In this document: one piece after another, positions 6-58,333 of the stretch
How the letters are laid out: the number at the start of each line of letters is the position of its first letter
How positions within the stretch are numbered: the first letter of the stretch is position 1
Origin: Protonemura montana
Lineage: Eukaryota; Arthropoda; Insecta; Plecoptera; Nemouridae
Direction: 5' to 3'
DNA length: 64,000 bases
Assembly: GCA_947568835.1 (NCBI GenBank)
Contig: OX387604.1
Location: forward strand, 11,127,076-11,191,075
The notes under the pieces: generated by a model
What the model saw: the letters and a program-made list of their open reading frames with translations, nothing else
Told to the model about the DNA's origin: nothing
Database searches by the model: none
Program-made: the position numbers and the translations under genes

Positions 6-3000
6 GGATGGAATGATGTTGGTTTTCATGGCTCAAACCAAATCCCTACGCCTAATATTGACGCTTTGGCTTATGATGGAATAATATTAAACAACTATTA
101 TGTAGCTCCCATTTGCACACCCAGCCGCAGCGCGCTAATGACTGGAAAATACCCAATACATACAGGTCGGTTGAACGATTATGTTTCTACACGTTTCTCA
201 CTTAAACAGGTGTTTTCTTTGAATTATTTTGGAAAGCCACACAAGCTCTGGGAATCACGAGAACAAGGGCTGGGTATCTGTGGGGTATGGGGTATTGGCC
301 GTGCCCCTTTGTAACATTTGATTGATTGTGTTGTTTACCTACCGGCGCGTCAGCAACTCTGCTATTTACGCCGTTTTTGATTAGAAGAGACAATTGAAAG
401 TCTTCTGACAGGATTTTTTAATTTTTTTTATATAAATTATTGTATGTTAAAATAACTTGTAGAAACAGATCTAAGAAGATTATTTTAATTGATTTTGACA
501 CAAGATTTTTGGATTGAAGTTTGCTTGGTGATTTTCACTCACTAGTCTACTAAAAGCTAAAATATTTTGGCTTTATTAAATTAAGGGTTGAACTCCCCTT
601 TCTCTTCAAGAGTTGTCAGATTTTAAAACACTACTGGAACATATTTCAGAAGAATTTTACCCTCTTTCCTCCTGTTATGTTTTTTATTAGTAGGTATATA
701 CTATTGTTGTGAGCATTTTCCATGAACTGCAAGAAAATAGCAACACATCTATATTGCTATCAATTATGGCAATGTTTACGAGTTTAATGTTGTACATTTT
801 AAAACAGGAATGCAGCACACAGTCTTATTTGGAGCGGAACCACGAGGCCTCCCCCTCAACGAGAAGCTTTTGCCGGAACATTTAAAAGAACTGGGCTACG
901 CAACACACATTGTTGGCAAATGGCATTTGGGGAGCTACAAACTTGAGTACACACCAATGAGACGGGGCTTTGACTCTCATCTCGGATATTGGACCGGTCA
1001 TCACGACTATTTTGACCACACTGCAATGGAAACGGTAATTTCCTGGAATCGTGTATTTTGTTTTGGGATCGAGGTTCGGCAGGTTGAGATAGAAAAGGGA
1101 AAAAATAAGAAAAACGTATGCAGTATTTCTGTGCTTGAATAATAGTTGAGCCACACTATGGTATCTATACAGAGTATTAAATGAAAATCAAGAAAATCCC
1201 ATCCCAATCAGGCACTACATAGTCAAACTGAAATTTATCTCTGGGTTTCCATGCAAAACATTTTTTGGGCACTTGCTGGCTTTTTTCTTGTACTATTTTA
1301 ATTTTCAAGGTTTTTAGGTCACGAGAAAAAGACCTCATGAATATAAATCACTGGAGTAGCTGAATGTTAACAAGACATCTTAGTCCCATTTAAAAATCTT
1401 TGTTATAGAAATTCTGGGGCCTAGACATGAGACGTGGGTTTGAAACTGCTTGGGACCTACACGGACAGTACTCGACAGACATATTTACGAAACAAGCCGA
1501 ATATCTGATTCTTTCACACAACTCGACTGTTCCAATGTTCCTCTACATTGCCCATGCCGCTGTCCACTCGGGCAATCCTTACAACCCCCTTCCTGTGCCT
1601 GATAGTGAAGTACAAAAGGTTAAAAACATCGAAAACTTTAACCGAAGAAAGTATGCTGGTAAATATTACGTGCTTAGAGTAATTTTGGTATTTTTTTGTT
1701 GCATGTGGCTTCAGAAAATTTAAGTCATTACACACGTCTAATTTCAGCTATGGTAAAGATGCTAGATGATTCAGTAGGAAAAGTTGTGCGAGCATTAAGT
1801 TTGGCAAAAATGTTGCAAGACACAATCATTGTGTTCACTACGGACAATGGTGGTCCAGCCGATGGATTCAACCAAAATGCAGCATCTAATTGGCCGCTTC
1901 GAGGGGTAAGGAAACCATATATTCTTGCCTTAATTACGATGCTGTCTTACTGATAATTCGTATCGATACTCAGCCAAATGAAGACATTTTATTTAGGTAA
2001 AGAACACACTTTGGGAGGGAGGCGTTCGTGGTGTAGGTCTCATTTGGGGCAAAACGTTAGAATCGACCCGCCGTGTGTCTGACCAACTTTTTCACATCAC
2101 CGATTGGCTGCCAACACTCTATTCAGCTGCTGGAGGCAAATCAGAGTATGTCAAATGCTAAAACCACTTTGTTCTTAGTATTTCCAACTGTTTTTAAATC
2201 TGACATCTGGTGCAAGTAGCTAATTGGAGTAATTCTTGTTCATTTTCAGAACTTTAGCTCACATAGATGGATTTGATGGATGGGCAGCTCTTTCTTATAA
2301 TCTCAAGCCAAACCGTACCCAAGTATTACATAACATTGATGACATATATGGAAATTCAGCATTAACGATAGGAGAATGGAAAATAGTAAAAGGCTCTACT
2401 TATAATGGAACGTGGGATGGTTGGTATGGCCCATCTGGAATGAATGAGTCGTTAGCATACAACTTTGACAATATTGCATCATCTATGGCTTCAAATGCAA
2501 TACATTACAAATCTGATGGTAGGTTTATATTAACTGGTGTTTAAATTTTAAGTGCACAAAATGCATTGAATATTCTATAGTGGAGACTAGGTATTTTTAT
2601 TATTTGACCCTTTTTAGGTCCTACTGTTTCGGAAATGATAACAATGAGGAAAAGTTCTCGCATCGAGTGCACGACCAGTACGGCTGATACAACTCTACTC
2701 AATGGGAGTGTAAAATGTGATCCCTTCAATGCAACCTGCCTGTTTAATATTAAAGCTGATCCCTGTGAAATGCATAATTTAGCTCATAAGTGAGTACTTA
2801 CTGTTTTATATATTTTTGAGAAATTTGAAGCGTTTTTGCAAGACAGCAGGTCTTCAGTAAATTGTTTCTTTCAGATATCGTGAAATTGTAGCCCGTTTGG
2901 AAGATGAGCTTGCTAATTTGAACAAGACTGCTGTACCTCCAGGCAATTTGGATGTGGATCCCAGAGGAAATCCAGACCTTTGGGGACACACATGGACGCA

Positions 3001-3040
3001 TTTTGGTGACTATTCTGTTACCACCAATAACGTCAATTAA
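6..3040 (+). CDS. ARSB: Arylsulfatase B-like sulfatase, 5' end outside window
   Basis: Type I sulfatase, probably lysosomal or secreted, hydrolysing sulfate esters (ARSB acts on N-acetylgalactosamine 4-sulfate of dermatan/chondroitin sulfate). Eight in-window exons with agreeing phases: 6-165, 808-1034, 1409-1658, 1748-1905, 1997-2145, 2250-2518, 2618-2789, 2875-3040, giving 516 codons and a stop. The first begins [10 protein letters not shown], the motif that follows the metal-binding DD in sulfatases; that DD and the signal peptide lie upstream of the window. Exon 1 carries [11 protein letters not shown], the C-x-P-S-R site whose Cys becomes formylglycine. Exon 2 has VGKWHLG, exon 4 TTDNGG (metal ligands) and NWPLRG, exon 5 LWEGGVRG, all in ARSB order. 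The C terminus ends in the ARSB-like [11 protein letters not shown] region. The ARSB/I/J subgroup is clear; exact orthology and substrate are inferred. Confidence 0.93.
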
Positions 3041-3416
3041 ATATTTAAATGTCAGGAACAGTGCAAATTCAGAGTCATCCATGTATATGAAATCATGTTT
3101 TTTTTGGCTACTTTAAAAATAATAAAAATACAAAAAGGGAAAGTACTTTCTGGAAGATTTAGTATTCTTAGGGGAGCCAATCCTCCTTCCTATACCCACA
3201 AACCCACCACTACCCATGTGCATTTCTAACGAAGAGAAATGATCCTGTAGATTATCTAGTTAAAATTATACTACAAAATTTATTGCATTAACAAAATTGC
3301 TCAATCTTTCTCCACATATAAAATACTGTGCCTACACTAATAGTTAAAAATGTTTATGTAGGCATCCAAACTATGATAAAGCAAACTAAATAACTTAAGG
3401 TGCTTCATAAACTATT
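3041..3416. other. Convergent 3' UTRs with facing poly(A) signals
   Basis: This spacer separates the sulfatase stop from the stop of the minus-strand Pvf-like gene. AATAAA at 3121-3126 on the plus strand lies about 80 bp after the sulfatase stop. AATAAA on the minus strand (TTTATT at 3279-3284) lies about 135 bp after the Pvf-like stop. The two transcripts therefore converge and may end within about 150 bp of each other. No other feature seen. Confidence 0.6.
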
Positions 3417-5346
3417 TTAAGTATTGTTTCTGTCCATGTGGAAATCTCCGTCGCCATAACCATCTTCATCCAGCAAATTTTCTGCTGATTCACAACTAAA
3501 ACAATCGCATAAAAAATCACCATTTAAGATTGCATCTTTCCCGAGTCTCAATCAATGTTATGAAATTCAAAATTTATTTTCAGTAAAAGCCAGTGGCAAG
3601 AATAGGAATCTTTATTTTGACTGTTAGATTGTAATCGGAATTTTTATTTGGGCGATAGTAATAGATATTTATAGCAATAGTCAGAAAACGACTAAGAAGT
3701 GCTTGAAATATTTCTTGAATTTTGAGAGAATTTCTGTTACTCCCAAGGGGTCAGAATCAAAGAGAAACAATATTGTTTTTGGAATCAGATTCAGAATTTT
3801 AGTTTTTTGTGAATTCTCTTTGGCATCAAAGTATTTATTTGTTACTGTTAAACAAACCAAATTGCAATATCTCAATCTTTTATGTAAATATTGTTTTGGT
3901 ATATACCTGCATGACTCTTTGTTCCATTTTTTACCAGTTGTACACATATTTGGCTTTTGGTGGCACACACACCTACACTCATTGGGGTCCCAAAGCATTA
4001 CCTTAGTGCATTTCTGGATTTGTGCGCATACGCACATACATTTATCCTTCATGAACGTCTGGAAACATCCCAATTAGTAAGTTAGGTATTAAAAATCCAT
4101 TTCCATTCTTATTCTAATTCTCTTACTTTTTTCTCATATGCTTTTCCCAGCCTTACCTGCATTTCACTGCAGTCTTCTTCCATTGTCAAGCAACCAGGTC
4201 TACATTTGGTATGTTCCATTATTTCAACAACTACAGCAAACATTACCTTTGCATCGAGAAGGTCCATTCTTAGTACCTGAAAGAGTAGAGTACATTAAGT
4301 TCTGCAACAGCTTACCACAAATTTCCTTTCAGTATCAGCTGCCACTATCACAACTACTACTACTACTGTATTTTATCATCATCTGTACGGCTGATCACCA
4401 AAAAGTAATTTGACGACCAAAAGGCTAACATTTAAACGTTCCTTTATCATTAAAAAAAATCAAGATGCGTGAAGTTGCAGTTCAACAAAATGGTGAATTT
4501 TAGTATTCACCACAACACTTACAGTGTACTGTTTCGGTATTGAATTTGTGGCCAAGCATGTCTTTTTTCCCATCACTCCTCCGTCACATCGTTTCACCAT
4601 CACTTTTGAGGGATAGTACTGAAATAAAAGGTGATTCCATTAGGTGAATTACTTGTATAGAGAAAAAAAACTGAAATGAGGAATTACTGAGCTTCTGAGT
4701 AGAAAATAGTGAATTGAGCAAATGCACTTATTATTTAATGTTGACAACTCGTTATATGGCTTATTACTTGGATTATTTGTTCAACACCCACAGTACCATG
4801 ATAATAATCTCCTGAATATTTACCAAAGTGTTTGCCGAAGCTGCAACAACTTCTACCAAAGTGTCTCGAGTGGCACACATACTTTTTGATGCGCTCTGCT
4901 CAAAGGCGGTTTTGTGCACCTTGTAGTTGTAAATTGCTGAAATTAGATGTTTTTATAAGAAAAAATTTTACATTCACCCTCTGAGATTGCAATTTAATCA
5001 CAAATAATACATTCATCGCTTCAACGTAATACATTTTTTATTTTCCATTTACAATTTGATTAAAGCGGATGAAAAATGTACCTGTTTCCAAAACCTTTGT
5101 TTCTGGTAGGTTGGTTCTACAGCTTATAGGACGTGAAGATCCAGCCATGGCCTGAGAAATTAATTTAAAATTAATGAAAAATAACTTGATTTTAATAATT
5201 ATTGCACACACTTATTATTACTGAAATAAATATTCTTAAATAATTAAAAAATATGTTACTGCATATAATCAAGAACGATGTTACATTACCCAAACATGTA
5301 TTTTCACAGTGATGCACAAAATTAATAACGTATATAGAAAACTCAT
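3417..5346 (-). CDS. Pvf: PDGF/VEGF-related secreted growth factor (Pvf-like), complete
   Basis: Secreted ligand predicted to bind a PDGF/VEGF-receptor-type tyrosine kinase (Pvr in insects). Seven exons, all phases agreeing: 5346-5290, 5151-5082, 4936-4824, 4618-4523, 4276-4157, 4058-3907, 3495-3417; 228 aa. Exon 1 is a signal peptide (MSFLYTLLILCITVKIHVW). The PDGF/VEGF core spans about residues 60-148: SMCATRDTLVEV (C63), VMVKRCDGG (C91), KKTC (C101), VVVEIMEHTKCRPGC (C137, C141). The tail has BR3/VEGF-C-like repeats of C-x-C-x-C type: CMCVC 159-163, WDPNECRCVC 175-184, WNKESCSC 197-204, then an acidic end. Odd points: the PxC cysteine is Lys85 and the GCC motif reads GGV, so the usual inter-chain cysteines and one knot pair are missing. 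Family is clear from order, spacing and tail; which Pvf paralogue is not. It was not visible as one ORF; plus-strand ORFs at 3703-4077 are its antisense. Confidence 0.87.
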
Positions 5347-5422
5347 GATGTCAGACAGAGTATAACTTTGGTCAGTTACTGATGGCTAGACTTAAACTTG
5401 GTGCTTTGATTCCAGCTCCGCA

Positions 5423-5430
5423 TATTTATA
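5423..5430 (-). promoter_or_regulatory. TATA box, candidate for the Pvf-like gene
   Basis: The minus strand reads TATAAATA here, 77 bp upstream of the Pvf-like ATG. A TCAGT initiator-like pentamer lies downstream at 5378-5382, rather far (about 45 bp) for a canonical pair. The site is 213 bp beyond the 3' end of the neighbouring transporter gene on the same strand. Position and sequence are suggestive only. Confidence 0.4.
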
Positions 5431-5642
5431 CTTGAGAAACAGGAAAAGACTTGCCGTAACACAAACTGACCACAAACCTGATGCAACATGCTATCAGTAT
5501 ACCTCACAGGATGTGACTTTATCTGCACAGTGCTGGAAATCCCCTTTACGACTCAAAATTTATTTTGTGATTATAAGGAACATTTCATTTCTTCATTTCC
5601 ATTAGCATTTACATGGTTACCAAATGTTCAACTAAATACAGT

Positions 5643-8600
5643 TTAAGTAGTACACAAGCAACTATTAATTTTTTTAATTATTGGTTGAAAGAGCCATGCA
5701 ATTCCAGGCAGGGCCTGGATCACTGTCAGAATGATGAAGCAGAACTGTAGGCCACCTGGACTGGCCAAGATAAAATCTGAAGAAAATTGGACATGACAAT
5801 TAATGGTAATATCACTAAATATCACATATCACTTAATTTAAACATCCCACAGTGATGGTGTTATGTTTTTTAATTAAACTTTTCTTACACTTACAAAGCA
5901 AAATTGTCGATATGAGGATGAGACTGCCAGAGAGACTGCCCAATATAGTTGCAACATTTGCCAAATTCCATGGCCCCAAAGTTTCATCAATCAGAGTGGG
6001 TGCAGTATTGACTGCGATGCCGTGCCCTATTCCAAAAACAGCGCAGCCTAATGTCACCGAGTCCCTGGAATCTGCCCCGGACAGCACTGGAAGTAAAGAA
6101 AATGATCAAAAACCAATTGAGAAAAGTAAGATTAATCACATATGCAGATAATGATGATGCATCCCAATCCAGAAGATTCCTATTAACCCAACGAGTAACG
6201 TCCCAAAATATTTTATTTTGGTCAGTAATTCTTCACTTCCTGTAAGAAGGTGGAAAACAAGACAAATCCAGTATAAATTTAGATCTGATCACCCGAATTC
6301 GGTAAGATTGTGCAGTATGATAATGATAAACTCACAGTAAAGCCCAATGGCAGCCAGGAAACAGCCCACTGATGAGAGGTATCGTCGCTTAATGGGTGCA
6401 ATACTGTTGAACCATGGTGTTAACACAAGTAAGCACAACCAAGAAAATCCAGCAACTGACACACCAAATGACGCAGCTTCCAACGAACAGTTTGGCACTC
6501 TCATGAGTGACAACTGGGGAATCAGTGCCGCAAATAAGAAGGGGCACAATTTCAATGATGACATTAGAAAAAGAACAGGCCAAAAGTATGGTGTTTTCAG
6601 TGCAGTTACTAGAGAATCAAAATATTTCTTGGAGCTTTTATTGTAAATGCAACATAAATTGGTTTTTTCCTTGGATTTTTGCTGAAAACAGCAATCATTT
6701 AATTTGATACTCTCCGATTGGTTATGTTGAGGAAGGGAACTAGATAACGGCACTGTTTTAGAAGAGTGATTTTCTTTGTCTTTCTGGCTGTTAGCACACC
6801 CCATGCCAGAAGAAACCTCTTGTTTTGTTTGTGGGCTAGGCTCACTTGTTTCAAGAAGTATTTCTTTGAAACATTTTGCATCAGAATTTAGTTCAATAGT
6901 TTGTAACTTTTCTTCCTCTGTAAAAATGTCATTTTCAATTTCTTCCGAATCATCTTTGAGGTGGTGCTCTTCAAGAGATTTTTGCTCCTTCAGTAGTGTC
7001 TTCAATTCTGTGCAGAGGACACTTGATTTTTGATCATGATCATCTAGTCGTAATGAAAAGTCGTGTCCGCCACTACTGTGAGTTGCTGTATCAAGTATTC
7101 GGTTTGCACCTTCCCTTCTGATTATTTGATTTTCAATGTCTACGACACAAGTAAATTGATTGATACTTATGTGGTCCTCAGTTTGATCATCAATTTCTTC
7201 ATTCTCTTCTAAAATTTTAGGCATCACCTCGATAATGGGAGGCTGTTTCCGTCTACTAGTTGGGCTTTTAAAGCTTTCCACTTTCCCGTTGCTTCCAGAA
7301 TCGTCTCTTGGGCTAGAATGCAAATCATCTCTGCATGGATTTCTCCAGTTACGTGTTTGAGGCATTGACAGGCAGTTATTGCTGTGAGACGATAAAAATA
7401 TTATGAATTTAAATGCTGATGAGCTTTCAAATGATTTCTCGGTGCCCATTAAACTCAACGGATTCCGAACATGAAAATTTCCTCCTTGTGGTACTTATTA
7501 TGAGAAACAAATAAATGTATGGAATTTGTCAAAGACACCCTAAAGTGAAATTAATTATTTTAGAAGCATACCTCCATTGGTCTCGGTTGTTAATCAGGAT
7601 ATATGATCTCGGTATTCTCTGATGTCTTGCTTTAAGATTGGCTCTGACAACAGGCGCAGGAAACAGCAAAGCAACTCCAATTAGTCCTTGCATTGCAATT
7701 CCTGCTATCAAGATCGAACCTCCTTTGTATCCATAAACTGCCAGGAGGGCACAAGACGCTAGTGGCATCGACGAACTACCGAGAGCCTTTCCAACGTTGT
7801 TGAATGTCATGACCAGCCCGTGCCGTACAGGGTAGTGGCATCTCAACAGCTCTTCCGTCTGAGCCAAAACCAGGCTGGTTCCCAGCCCTTTCACACATGT
7901 TTATTTTAAATGTTGTAGACATTATTAGAAATTCTTGTAATATACACACTATGGGGGACTTATATTGCAAAAATATATTAGTATATAAATAAACTGTGTT
8001 TTGTGTGAGCTTGTGTGTGTGTCTGTTTTATATAAACTGTACTGAATTTAAAACATTTGTTCCTGTTTACTGTTTAGCTTCGAGGGGATTCTTTTTGCAG
8101 TGGATTGAAATAAGAGAAAACTTACCTGTTACTATTCCATACCCCAAAACTTGTAAAAAAATATTTTTAATTGTACAGTTGCAGGCAATTCCCCCCACAG
8201 CAATGAGGACTCCAATGCCTGTCAGCACTCTACTATATGTTTGCTTGGTAGAAACTGATTTTCTACACCATGGATCTGAAATGAAGTCAGATATTATTTT
8301 TTTTTAATAATTATTAATATTGTGCAAGTTTGTTATGCCTTGAGTACCTGAAGAAATAACTTTTGATTTGTATTATATAAAGATCATTTTTAAATGTTTT
8401 ATGTATGACGTTTATTTAATTCTCATGAAATGTGTAGATACCTGCAAATGCCCAACATGTGATATAGGCAGAGGATATCAGTAAACTCTTCCTATCCGAA
8501 TAAAAATCACCTTCTCCAGAAAAAGCAAAAATTGTTCCATAGGAATATCCAATACTTGCAACTGTCAACTGCAAAGAATGGTTTATTTAAATAATCTAGA

Positions 8601-43000: not shown

Positions 43001-55179
<12,179 letters not shown>

Positions 55180-56757: not shown

Positions 56758-58333
56758 TCATCTTTCAGCATAGTCTAAATAATTTTCGATACCATAACCA
56801 AATAACTCAAAATCAAGCTTATACTTGTCATATAATTTCCTAACTTCCTCTTTAGACAACTGAGAGAAATATCGTTTTGCTATTTCAGACGCTTGATACA
56901 CTGCAGTCTTATGTGTCCATATTGGTTTTATCAGTTCGTCTAATCCCATAGATTTTATAACATAATTTTGATCTCTGTTTAATGTTTCTACTTGAGCAAT
57001 AACATCATAATTGAGTAAACATGGGGTGCAAAATAGATAATAAGGTATCCAATGGTCATCAGCATTATGCACTAAATCTGTGTCCAGTAAATAATTCACA
57101 AATTCTTTGAAAGTTGGTTCACTCCCTTCGGGCTTGGGTAAATTTGGATCGTATACTACTTGTTTGGGCTTGAGAACGTTTGTTAAATTTCCCTGGTATA
57201 GCTGATTTCTGTACTTGGCGACAATTTTGCGTCCGTACTTTTGGTAGAAGTGCTTTGTCCCGTGTTTCCATCCCAGACGTTTATTTTCAAGTTTGTCTCG
57301 GTAAGCTGACAATAGTCTGGCAAAAGGGTGGCGAACGACCAAAAGCTTCAATGAGTCGTGAAATGCCTAAAATAAAATGCAATCATGATTATTTTTTTCA
57401 TGAAATTTGAAAAAAAAAATTAATGAGGTTTGTGAACCGAAGTAGTAAAAAATTACAATTGCCTCCAGTTCCGATCACAGGTGTCAGCAGATACATCATT
57501 AGATCGCTACATCCTTATTTTTCTGCTGAATTTAGTTACCTTATCTACCAGCCAGCTTACCCTATTATGGTTTTATAATATTTAAAATAGTGTACCTCTT
57601 CTGCGTCAGCTGCATCCAGCTCGGCATAAATGGTCCTAGCTACTTCGCTCAGCTGTTTATCATAATTTTCCAGGTCTTCCTTCTTGTATCCACTTAGTAG
57701 GAGGAAATTTGTCAACCAAGTTGTTGAACCAGCCTTATAAATTGGACACCAGGACAATTTATGGACCCTAGAAAATTTGAAACAAAAAAGGATCGTAATT
57801 GATTAATTGGTCGAGCGAGAAAATTCGTTTGCTCCAATTTTCTGTTCTGATATAAATTTTACTTTAAACACAGTCATTTTTAGCGTAAGACTGAGATGCT
57901 GAGATTAAGAGTCACCTACCTGTCAATGTAAAACACTCCGTATTGCGGTGTGGGTGGATGCTTGATTGTTGGCTTGCTTGCCGAGTGCTTGTACAGTCCT
58001 AAATTGTATTTGTAGCAAATTGATTGTACCCTCTGGAGTCTTCCAGCATTGTCAGATTCGGCTCGACTCTGCAAAAAAAATCACGATCAATAATGGGAAA
58101 CTTCAAATCAAGACGGGTTGGATTGGAATATGGATAAACAAATTGTTTGAATTTACCAGCGAAAGTGAATCACCATTGTCGACATCTCGGATCGCTGTCT
58201 TGATATTTAAAATAGAACTCGTTTCGATTTTTCTTTGATCCAGCATTGAGATCGCGGTGTGGAGATATAACAGGAGTCCCAAAAGGACCAAAGTCCCGAA
58301 TGCAATAAAACGAACATACCGAGTTTGGCTCAT
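56758..58333 (-). CDS. Carbohydrate sulfotransferase (CHST8-14 / Sulfotransfer_2 type)
   Basis: Predicted Golgi type II membrane enzyme transferring sulfate from PAPS to glycan or chondroitin/dermatan hydroxyls. Exons 58333-58157, 58068-57920, 57767-57596, 57366-56758; phases agree; 368 aa, similar to CHST11 (352). A short cytosolic MSQTRYVR precedes the anchor FIAFGTLVLLGLLLYL (about 9-24). The 5'-PAPS-binding site is PIYKAGSTTW (117-126) and the 3'-phosphate site RHPFARLLSAYRDK (178-191), both canonical for this family. The C-terminal part (DDHWIPYYLFCTPCLLNYDVI, QLSKEEVRKLYDKYKLDFELFGY) matches the family ending. The start is the ATG that gives the anchor. Exact acceptor glycan unknown. 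Confidence 0.93.

Follow-up and report, generated by a model that had tools for sequence, protein, structure and literature searches.

Textbooks define the PDGF/VEGF family by an eight-cysteine signature, whose members are joined in VEGF by the intra-chain bonds 26-68, 57-102, and 61-104 and by the inter-chain bond 51-60. Departures from this scheme have been described. Among protostome PVFs, absence of the inter-chain cysteines is called "the rule", and non-covalent dimers are also stated for VEGF-C (passages of PMC10328876). Like the Protonemura montana gene described here, Drosophila PVF-2 and C. elegans PVF-1 have the PDGF/VEGF core, followed in PVF-2 by a BR3P tail, and lack one or both inter-chain cysteines; in contrast to this gene, those passages, which allow a comparison by description only, do not speak of a lost knot disulfide in either of them (PMC10328876). 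For VEGF-A, the mutants 1mkk (C61A, C104A) and 1mkg (C57A, C102A) are reported to have a wild-type-like structure without the knot loop, their folding capacity being reduced while their stability is not (PMC2759523, in a passage on Muller et al.), and the structural differences seen in VEGF-A disulfide mutants are said to be confined to loops or to the monomer arrangement (passage of PMC3328748). Finally, chordate IL-17 is described as a natural knot fold with two of the three knot disulfides, the third pair being jointly replaced by two serines (passages of PMC4517768 and PMC8353272).

A seven-exon Pvf-type gene

The window, i.e., the whole stretch of 64,000 nucleotides that was analysed, lies on contig C16 of the genome and carries on its minus strand, from 5346 to 3417, a genuine Pvf-type gene with an intact spliced frame (Table 1). 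As had been proposed from the letters of the window, seven short exons join in phase, yielding 687 nt that encode 228 aa and a stop codon, and the splice sites are canonical in 12 cases out of 12 (GT at six of six donors, AG at six of six acceptors). Cleavage of the likely signal peptide would take place after A22, at an AxA site (A20-M21-A22) judged by eye rather than with a predictor. The protein has 18 cysteines, at residues 11, 30, 63, 91, 101, 137, 141, 148, 159, 161, 163, 169, 180, 182, 184, 191, 202, and 204, the first of which sits inside the likely signal peptide; the secreted chain would thus hold 17, an odd number, so that at least one of them should be free, inter-chain, or lost with the N-terminus.

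Three other genes or exons were noted in the window: a sulfatase gene on the plus strand that converges on the growth-factor gene (741-1142 on to about 3040; one exon scores 35.3 bits with PF00884), a Bestrophin exon (51555-51962, plus strand; 173 bits with PF01062), and a Sulfotransfer_2 exon (56761-57366, minus strand; 132 bits with PF03567).

Table 1. Parts of the Pvf-type gene (window positions) and location of its nearest paralogue (positions on contig C4).
Feature	Position	Strand	Remarks
Exon 1	5290..5346	-	Start codon; hydrophobic stretch of the likely signal peptide, residues 1-19; donor GTAATG
Exon 2	5082..5151	-	N-terminal extension with C30; acceptor ...TTTCTCAG; donor GTACAT, phase 1 out
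Exon 3	4824..4936	-	PDGF/VEGF core begins; C63 (= VEGF C26), CATRDTLVEV
Exon 4	4523..4618	-	P-S-K85 (PxC lost); C91 (= C57); D-G-G94-V95 (C60/C61 lost); C101 (= C68)
Exon 5	4157..4276	-	Final core strands; HTK-C137 (= C102); P139 (= C104 lost); C141; C148
Exon 6	3907..4058	-	Remainder of BR3P repeat 1, whole of repeat 2, most of repeat 3
Exon 7	3417..3495	-	Completes repeat 3 (C204; Glu205 stands in for the motif's last cysteine); acidic tail; stop codon
AATAAA (candidate poly(A) signal)	3279..3284	-	About 130 bases past the stop codon; by eye
Paralogue on contig C4	about 10370400-10372340	-	Pvf2/VEGF-C-like, eight cysteines

Family membership and kinship within the genome

When given alone, the core (residues 57-149, 93 aa) matches the PDGF/VEGF profile PF00341 with 33.1 bits (E 6.9e-8), above the curated Pfam cut-off of 27, over profile positions 1-81 of 82 and beginning at C63. 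A search of Pfam with the whole 228-aa protein at E<=1 returned CXCXC only (PF03128, 21.9 bits versus a cut-off of 15, in 2 stretches), PF00341 being absent. With a custom HMM made from six related cores, those of three paralogues in the genome plus three from vertebrate chains (one vertebrate residue being mistyped), the core scored 32.4 bits and the whole protein 29.0 bits; the score of the core was reached by none of the 4999 cysteine-keeping shuffles listed of 5000 made (best, 13.3), nor by any of 5000 free shuffles (best, 12.2). The core is followed by BR3P repeats, C148-x10-C159-x-C161-x-C163, C169-x10-C180-x-C182-x-C184, and C191-x10-C202-x-C204, and together with the score of the core above the PF00341 cut-off they bear out the VEGF-C-like layout that the sequence-only reading had assigned to the protein. 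No VEGF entry of the PDB was matched by phmmer with the whole protein; the matches to three human ARID4A-domain entries (E 0.03-0.17) were put down to chance in view of the much stronger Pfam and HMM results.

A PF00341 search of the genome (258 Mb, 34 contigs) found three other genes, on contigs C4, C11, and C16, and missed the window gene, in which three exons share the domain. The cores of these paralogues score 57.1, 34.0, and 39.7 bits, respectively; the window core, with four of the eight signature cysteines, thus scores about as high as the contig-C11 core, which has seven. The nearest of them is the paralogue on contig C4, to which the spliced protein aligns by BLASTP with 30% over 142 aa (E 7e-16, in a subject set of three sequences); in the same set, the contig-C11 paralogue was reached at E 0.5 only and the contig-C16 paralogue was not matched at E<=10. 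At the exon level, tblastn brings the window protein weakly onto the tail of the contig-C4 paralogue (E 0.013), and tblastn of the genome with the latter protein at E<=10 returned itself and the contig-C16 paralogue, without the window gene, so that the kinship of the two rests on the spliced comparison. Their cores and BR3P tails align and both have an extra cysteine after C102/C104 (CACQC in the paralogue). They also share, as judged by eye, the position and phase of the intron that follows exon 4 (C68+11, phase 0), and in both of them the last x10 cysteine is followed by a phase-2 donor. In contrast to the window gene, the contig-C4 paralogue has the full set of eight signature cysteines (PTC, RCGGCC, CAC), its core is without the additional intron that separates exons 3 and 4, and its pre-tail intron lies about six codons earlier.

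The two remaining paralogues have features of their own. The contig-C11 gene (4068767-4069270, L017) has its whole core in one exon, with no BR3P tail in frame, and misses C51 (SPRMTVLHRC) while keeping CC, which is preceded by three additional residues (CDRTTGCC); its C60 would therefore be without the usual partner, and it provides an example that single cysteine losses occur. The contig-C16 gene (14736363-14738583, L018-L019), about 3.6 Mb from the window gene, is Pvf1-like and has eight signature cysteines with a three-residue insertion before CC (RCGNDTACC). Further exons with CXCXC barely above the cut-off (16-17 bits, E 4-9) are located at C12:7354650, C11:14174390, C12:3381995, and C16:25172582. 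Two other collections were searched, both of them non-insect and hence uninformative on orthologues: in the viral contigs a single locus matched weakly (L022, 30% across residues 41-96, with E relative to one candidate) and was taken as chance, and the genomic contigs gave 14 pattern matches and no relative. As a separate observation, a six-unit TTAGG pattern matches the genome 6912 times in forward and 6102 times in reverse orientation, overlaps counted, as would suit an insect or some other arthropod. On contig C1 these telomere-type arrays occur at many internal places and not just at the contig ends (e.g., 916562-916626, 1101522-1101646, and 11637666-11638095).

Signature cysteines kept and lost

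In the custom-HMM alignment (hmm 9-85), C91 corresponds to VEGF C57, C101 to C68, and C137 to C102, while K85 stands at C51, G94/V95 at C60/C61, and P139 at C104, as seen in the profile/protein pairs PtcvelkRC/PSKVMVKRC, kRCggCCkgegesC/KRCDGGVMGK-KTC, and HteCaC/HTKCRP. This alignment begins after C63, whose equivalence with C26 rests on the start of the PF00341 alignment. With the N-terminus untrimmed, MAFFT put C30 in the first cysteine column, and with the N-terminus trimmed it aligned C63 there; C30 was rejected as the first cysteine of the knot, given that the PF00341 match opens with C63 and that C63 heads a CxxRxTLVEV motif, which we take to resemble the VEGF one. The protein thus has four of the six cystine-knot cysteines, with Val95 in place of C61 and Pro139 in place of C104, and neither of the two inter-chain ones, C51 and C60 being Lys85 and Gly94, a lack that is not decisive for membership since these are often missing in protostome members. 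The codons at the lost sites, AAA, GGA, GTG, and CCT, are 3, 2, 3, and 2 bases away from the nearest Cys codon.

Taken together, the two profiles uphold what had been read by eye, i.e., that C26, C57, C68, and C102 are kept and that C51/C60 and C61/C104 are jointly absent. Given the bond pattern of VEGF, the missing set amounts to one knot pair plus the inter-chain pair. However, random loss of four cysteines from eight would remove two whole pairs in 6 cases out of 70 (0.086, by simple arithmetic), so that the pairwise pattern alone is weak evidence of selection, and loss in pairs is only suggested. The absence of the inter-chain pair, which the same reading had stressed, is largely accounted for by the passages cited above, according to which it is common in protostome PVFs (PMC10328876). 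The absence of the ring pair is not: in a limited search of the open-licence literature, covering titles, abstract starts, and passages, no natural PVF without C61-C104 was described. Inter-chain loss is thus already known; what appears to be new, within that limited search, is a natural PDGF/VEGF member that lacks the ring pair.

A possible two-disulfide dimer and its alternatives

As judged from the cysteines that remain, the protein would probably fold and form pairs in the absence of a true cystine knot. Together with the literature on protostome PVFs, VEGF-A mutants, and chordate IL-17, this leads us to infer a two-disulfide, non-covalent dimer working via a Pvr-type receptor. According to this most likely explanation, which taken as a whole we regard as somewhat better than an even bet, the window gene is a fourth PDGF/VEGF-related factor (Pvf) of the genome, with a VEGF-C/Pvf2 layout. 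The factor would be secreted, and each chain would hold two core disulfides, C63-C101 and C91-C137 (VEGF 26-68 and 57-102), with no closed cystine-knot ring, Val95 and Pro139 filling the space of the C61-C104 disulfide. Two such chains would lie side by side via a hydrophobic interface, without inter-chain disulfides, and the dimer would bind and cross-link a Pvr-type receptor tyrosine kinase, while the BR3P tail, like that of VEGF-C, may serve as a module for retention or processing.

This explanation draws on the intact frame, the score of the core and the shuffles, the homology and the introns shared with the contig-C4 paralogue, and the precedents of VEGF-A C61A/C104A and IL-17. On the other side stand the whole-protein search without a PF00341 report, the tblastn search that misses the window gene, and the odd cysteine count of the secreted chain. 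The VEGF-A precedent also goes only part of the way. Among the structure entries 1mkk, 1mkg, and 1mjv, the first and the last, 1mjv being presumably the C51A/C60A mutant, each do without one of the two disulfides that are missing here; however, these proteins are laboratory-made, with Ala at one pair each, whereas the window gene is natural and has Val/Pro and Lys/Gly at both pairs. The Muller mutants fold less well and were made for a single pair each, so that the double loss goes beyond them. That a natural PDGF/VEGF ligand does without the knot, having given up the inter-chain and the ring bonds together for a two-disulfide non-covalent dimer, therefore seems to us an evenly balanced proposition. 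We give equal odds for and against regarding it as an independent parallel to chordate IL-17, where the cytokine family and the receptors are different and Ser/Ser takes the place of the pair, and as a naturally occurring equivalent of the VEGF mutants that were engineered to lack the knot.

It is unlikely, by comparison, that the protein is expressed and forms no receptor-activating dimer, damping Pvr signalling instead as a monomer or as the heterodimer partner of an eight-cysteine paralogue. The absence of both inter-chain cysteines and the existence of three paralogues in the genome would suit such a role, but the sequence bears no sign of antagonism and non-covalent dimers are known in the family (passages of PMC10328876). 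A monomeric form as such is possible, with nothing pointing to it, given how common inter-chain loss is in protostome PVFs and given the non-covalent dimers of VEGF-C (same passages, PMC10328876).

Relaxed constraint, i.e., a pseudogene in the making whose cysteines were lost as nothing holds them, is rather improbable as well. It is true that four of the eight hallmark residues have disappeared, as has the last BR3P cysteine, but the seven exons are all open with every splice site canonical, the BR3P spacing is exact, and the core scores like that of the paralogue with seven of the eight cysteines.

The sequence-only reading had also raised a rearranged knot using C141/C148; one form of it would be a ring C91-C137 / C101-C141, or a similar one, threaded by another cysteine. 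C141 lies four residues past C137, and C30 could be an additional partner. However, in the alignment with the contig-C4 paralogue, whose stretch HTKCACQCIIKEKDCGPMQKYVPGECRCEC is set against HTKCRPGCLTMEEDCSEMQTFMKDKCMCVC, the counterpart of C141 is the third cysteine of CACQC, present there beside all eight signature cysteines, while C148, as the first cysteine of BR3P repeat 1, lines up with the equivalent repeat. Having counterparts in an intact paralogue, the two are ordinary tail cysteines of the subfamily and not substitutes for the lost pair. Moreover, C91 and C101 are the sole cysteines between residues 64 and 136, so that the C-x-G-x-C side of a ring is gone. We thus hold this rearrangement to be very unlikely.

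Hardly credible, finally, is a wrong gene model at exons 4 or 5, with a true transcript that carries the missing cysteines, because retained motif residues lie in these same exons (P-S-K-V-x-V-K-R-C, E-H-T-K-C) and a motif scan in six frames of 3000-6000 found no alternative exon with PxC-x3-6-RC, C-x2-6-CC, or HTxCxC, its one match, CKGNVCC at 4253, being off-frame over exon 5 and running into a stop at about 4226.

A ring-less, non-covalent Pvf dimer would have consequences for how the family is recognized and understood. Searches based on cysteines miss such ligands, as illustrated by the Pfam model, which overlooked the window gene in the genome search as well as in the search with the complete protein. 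If true, the reading would provide an evolutionary test of the laboratory result obtained with VEGF-A, that the knot is of greater help to folding than to stability, and would reveal how much decay of the signature is compatible with a retained fold and function.
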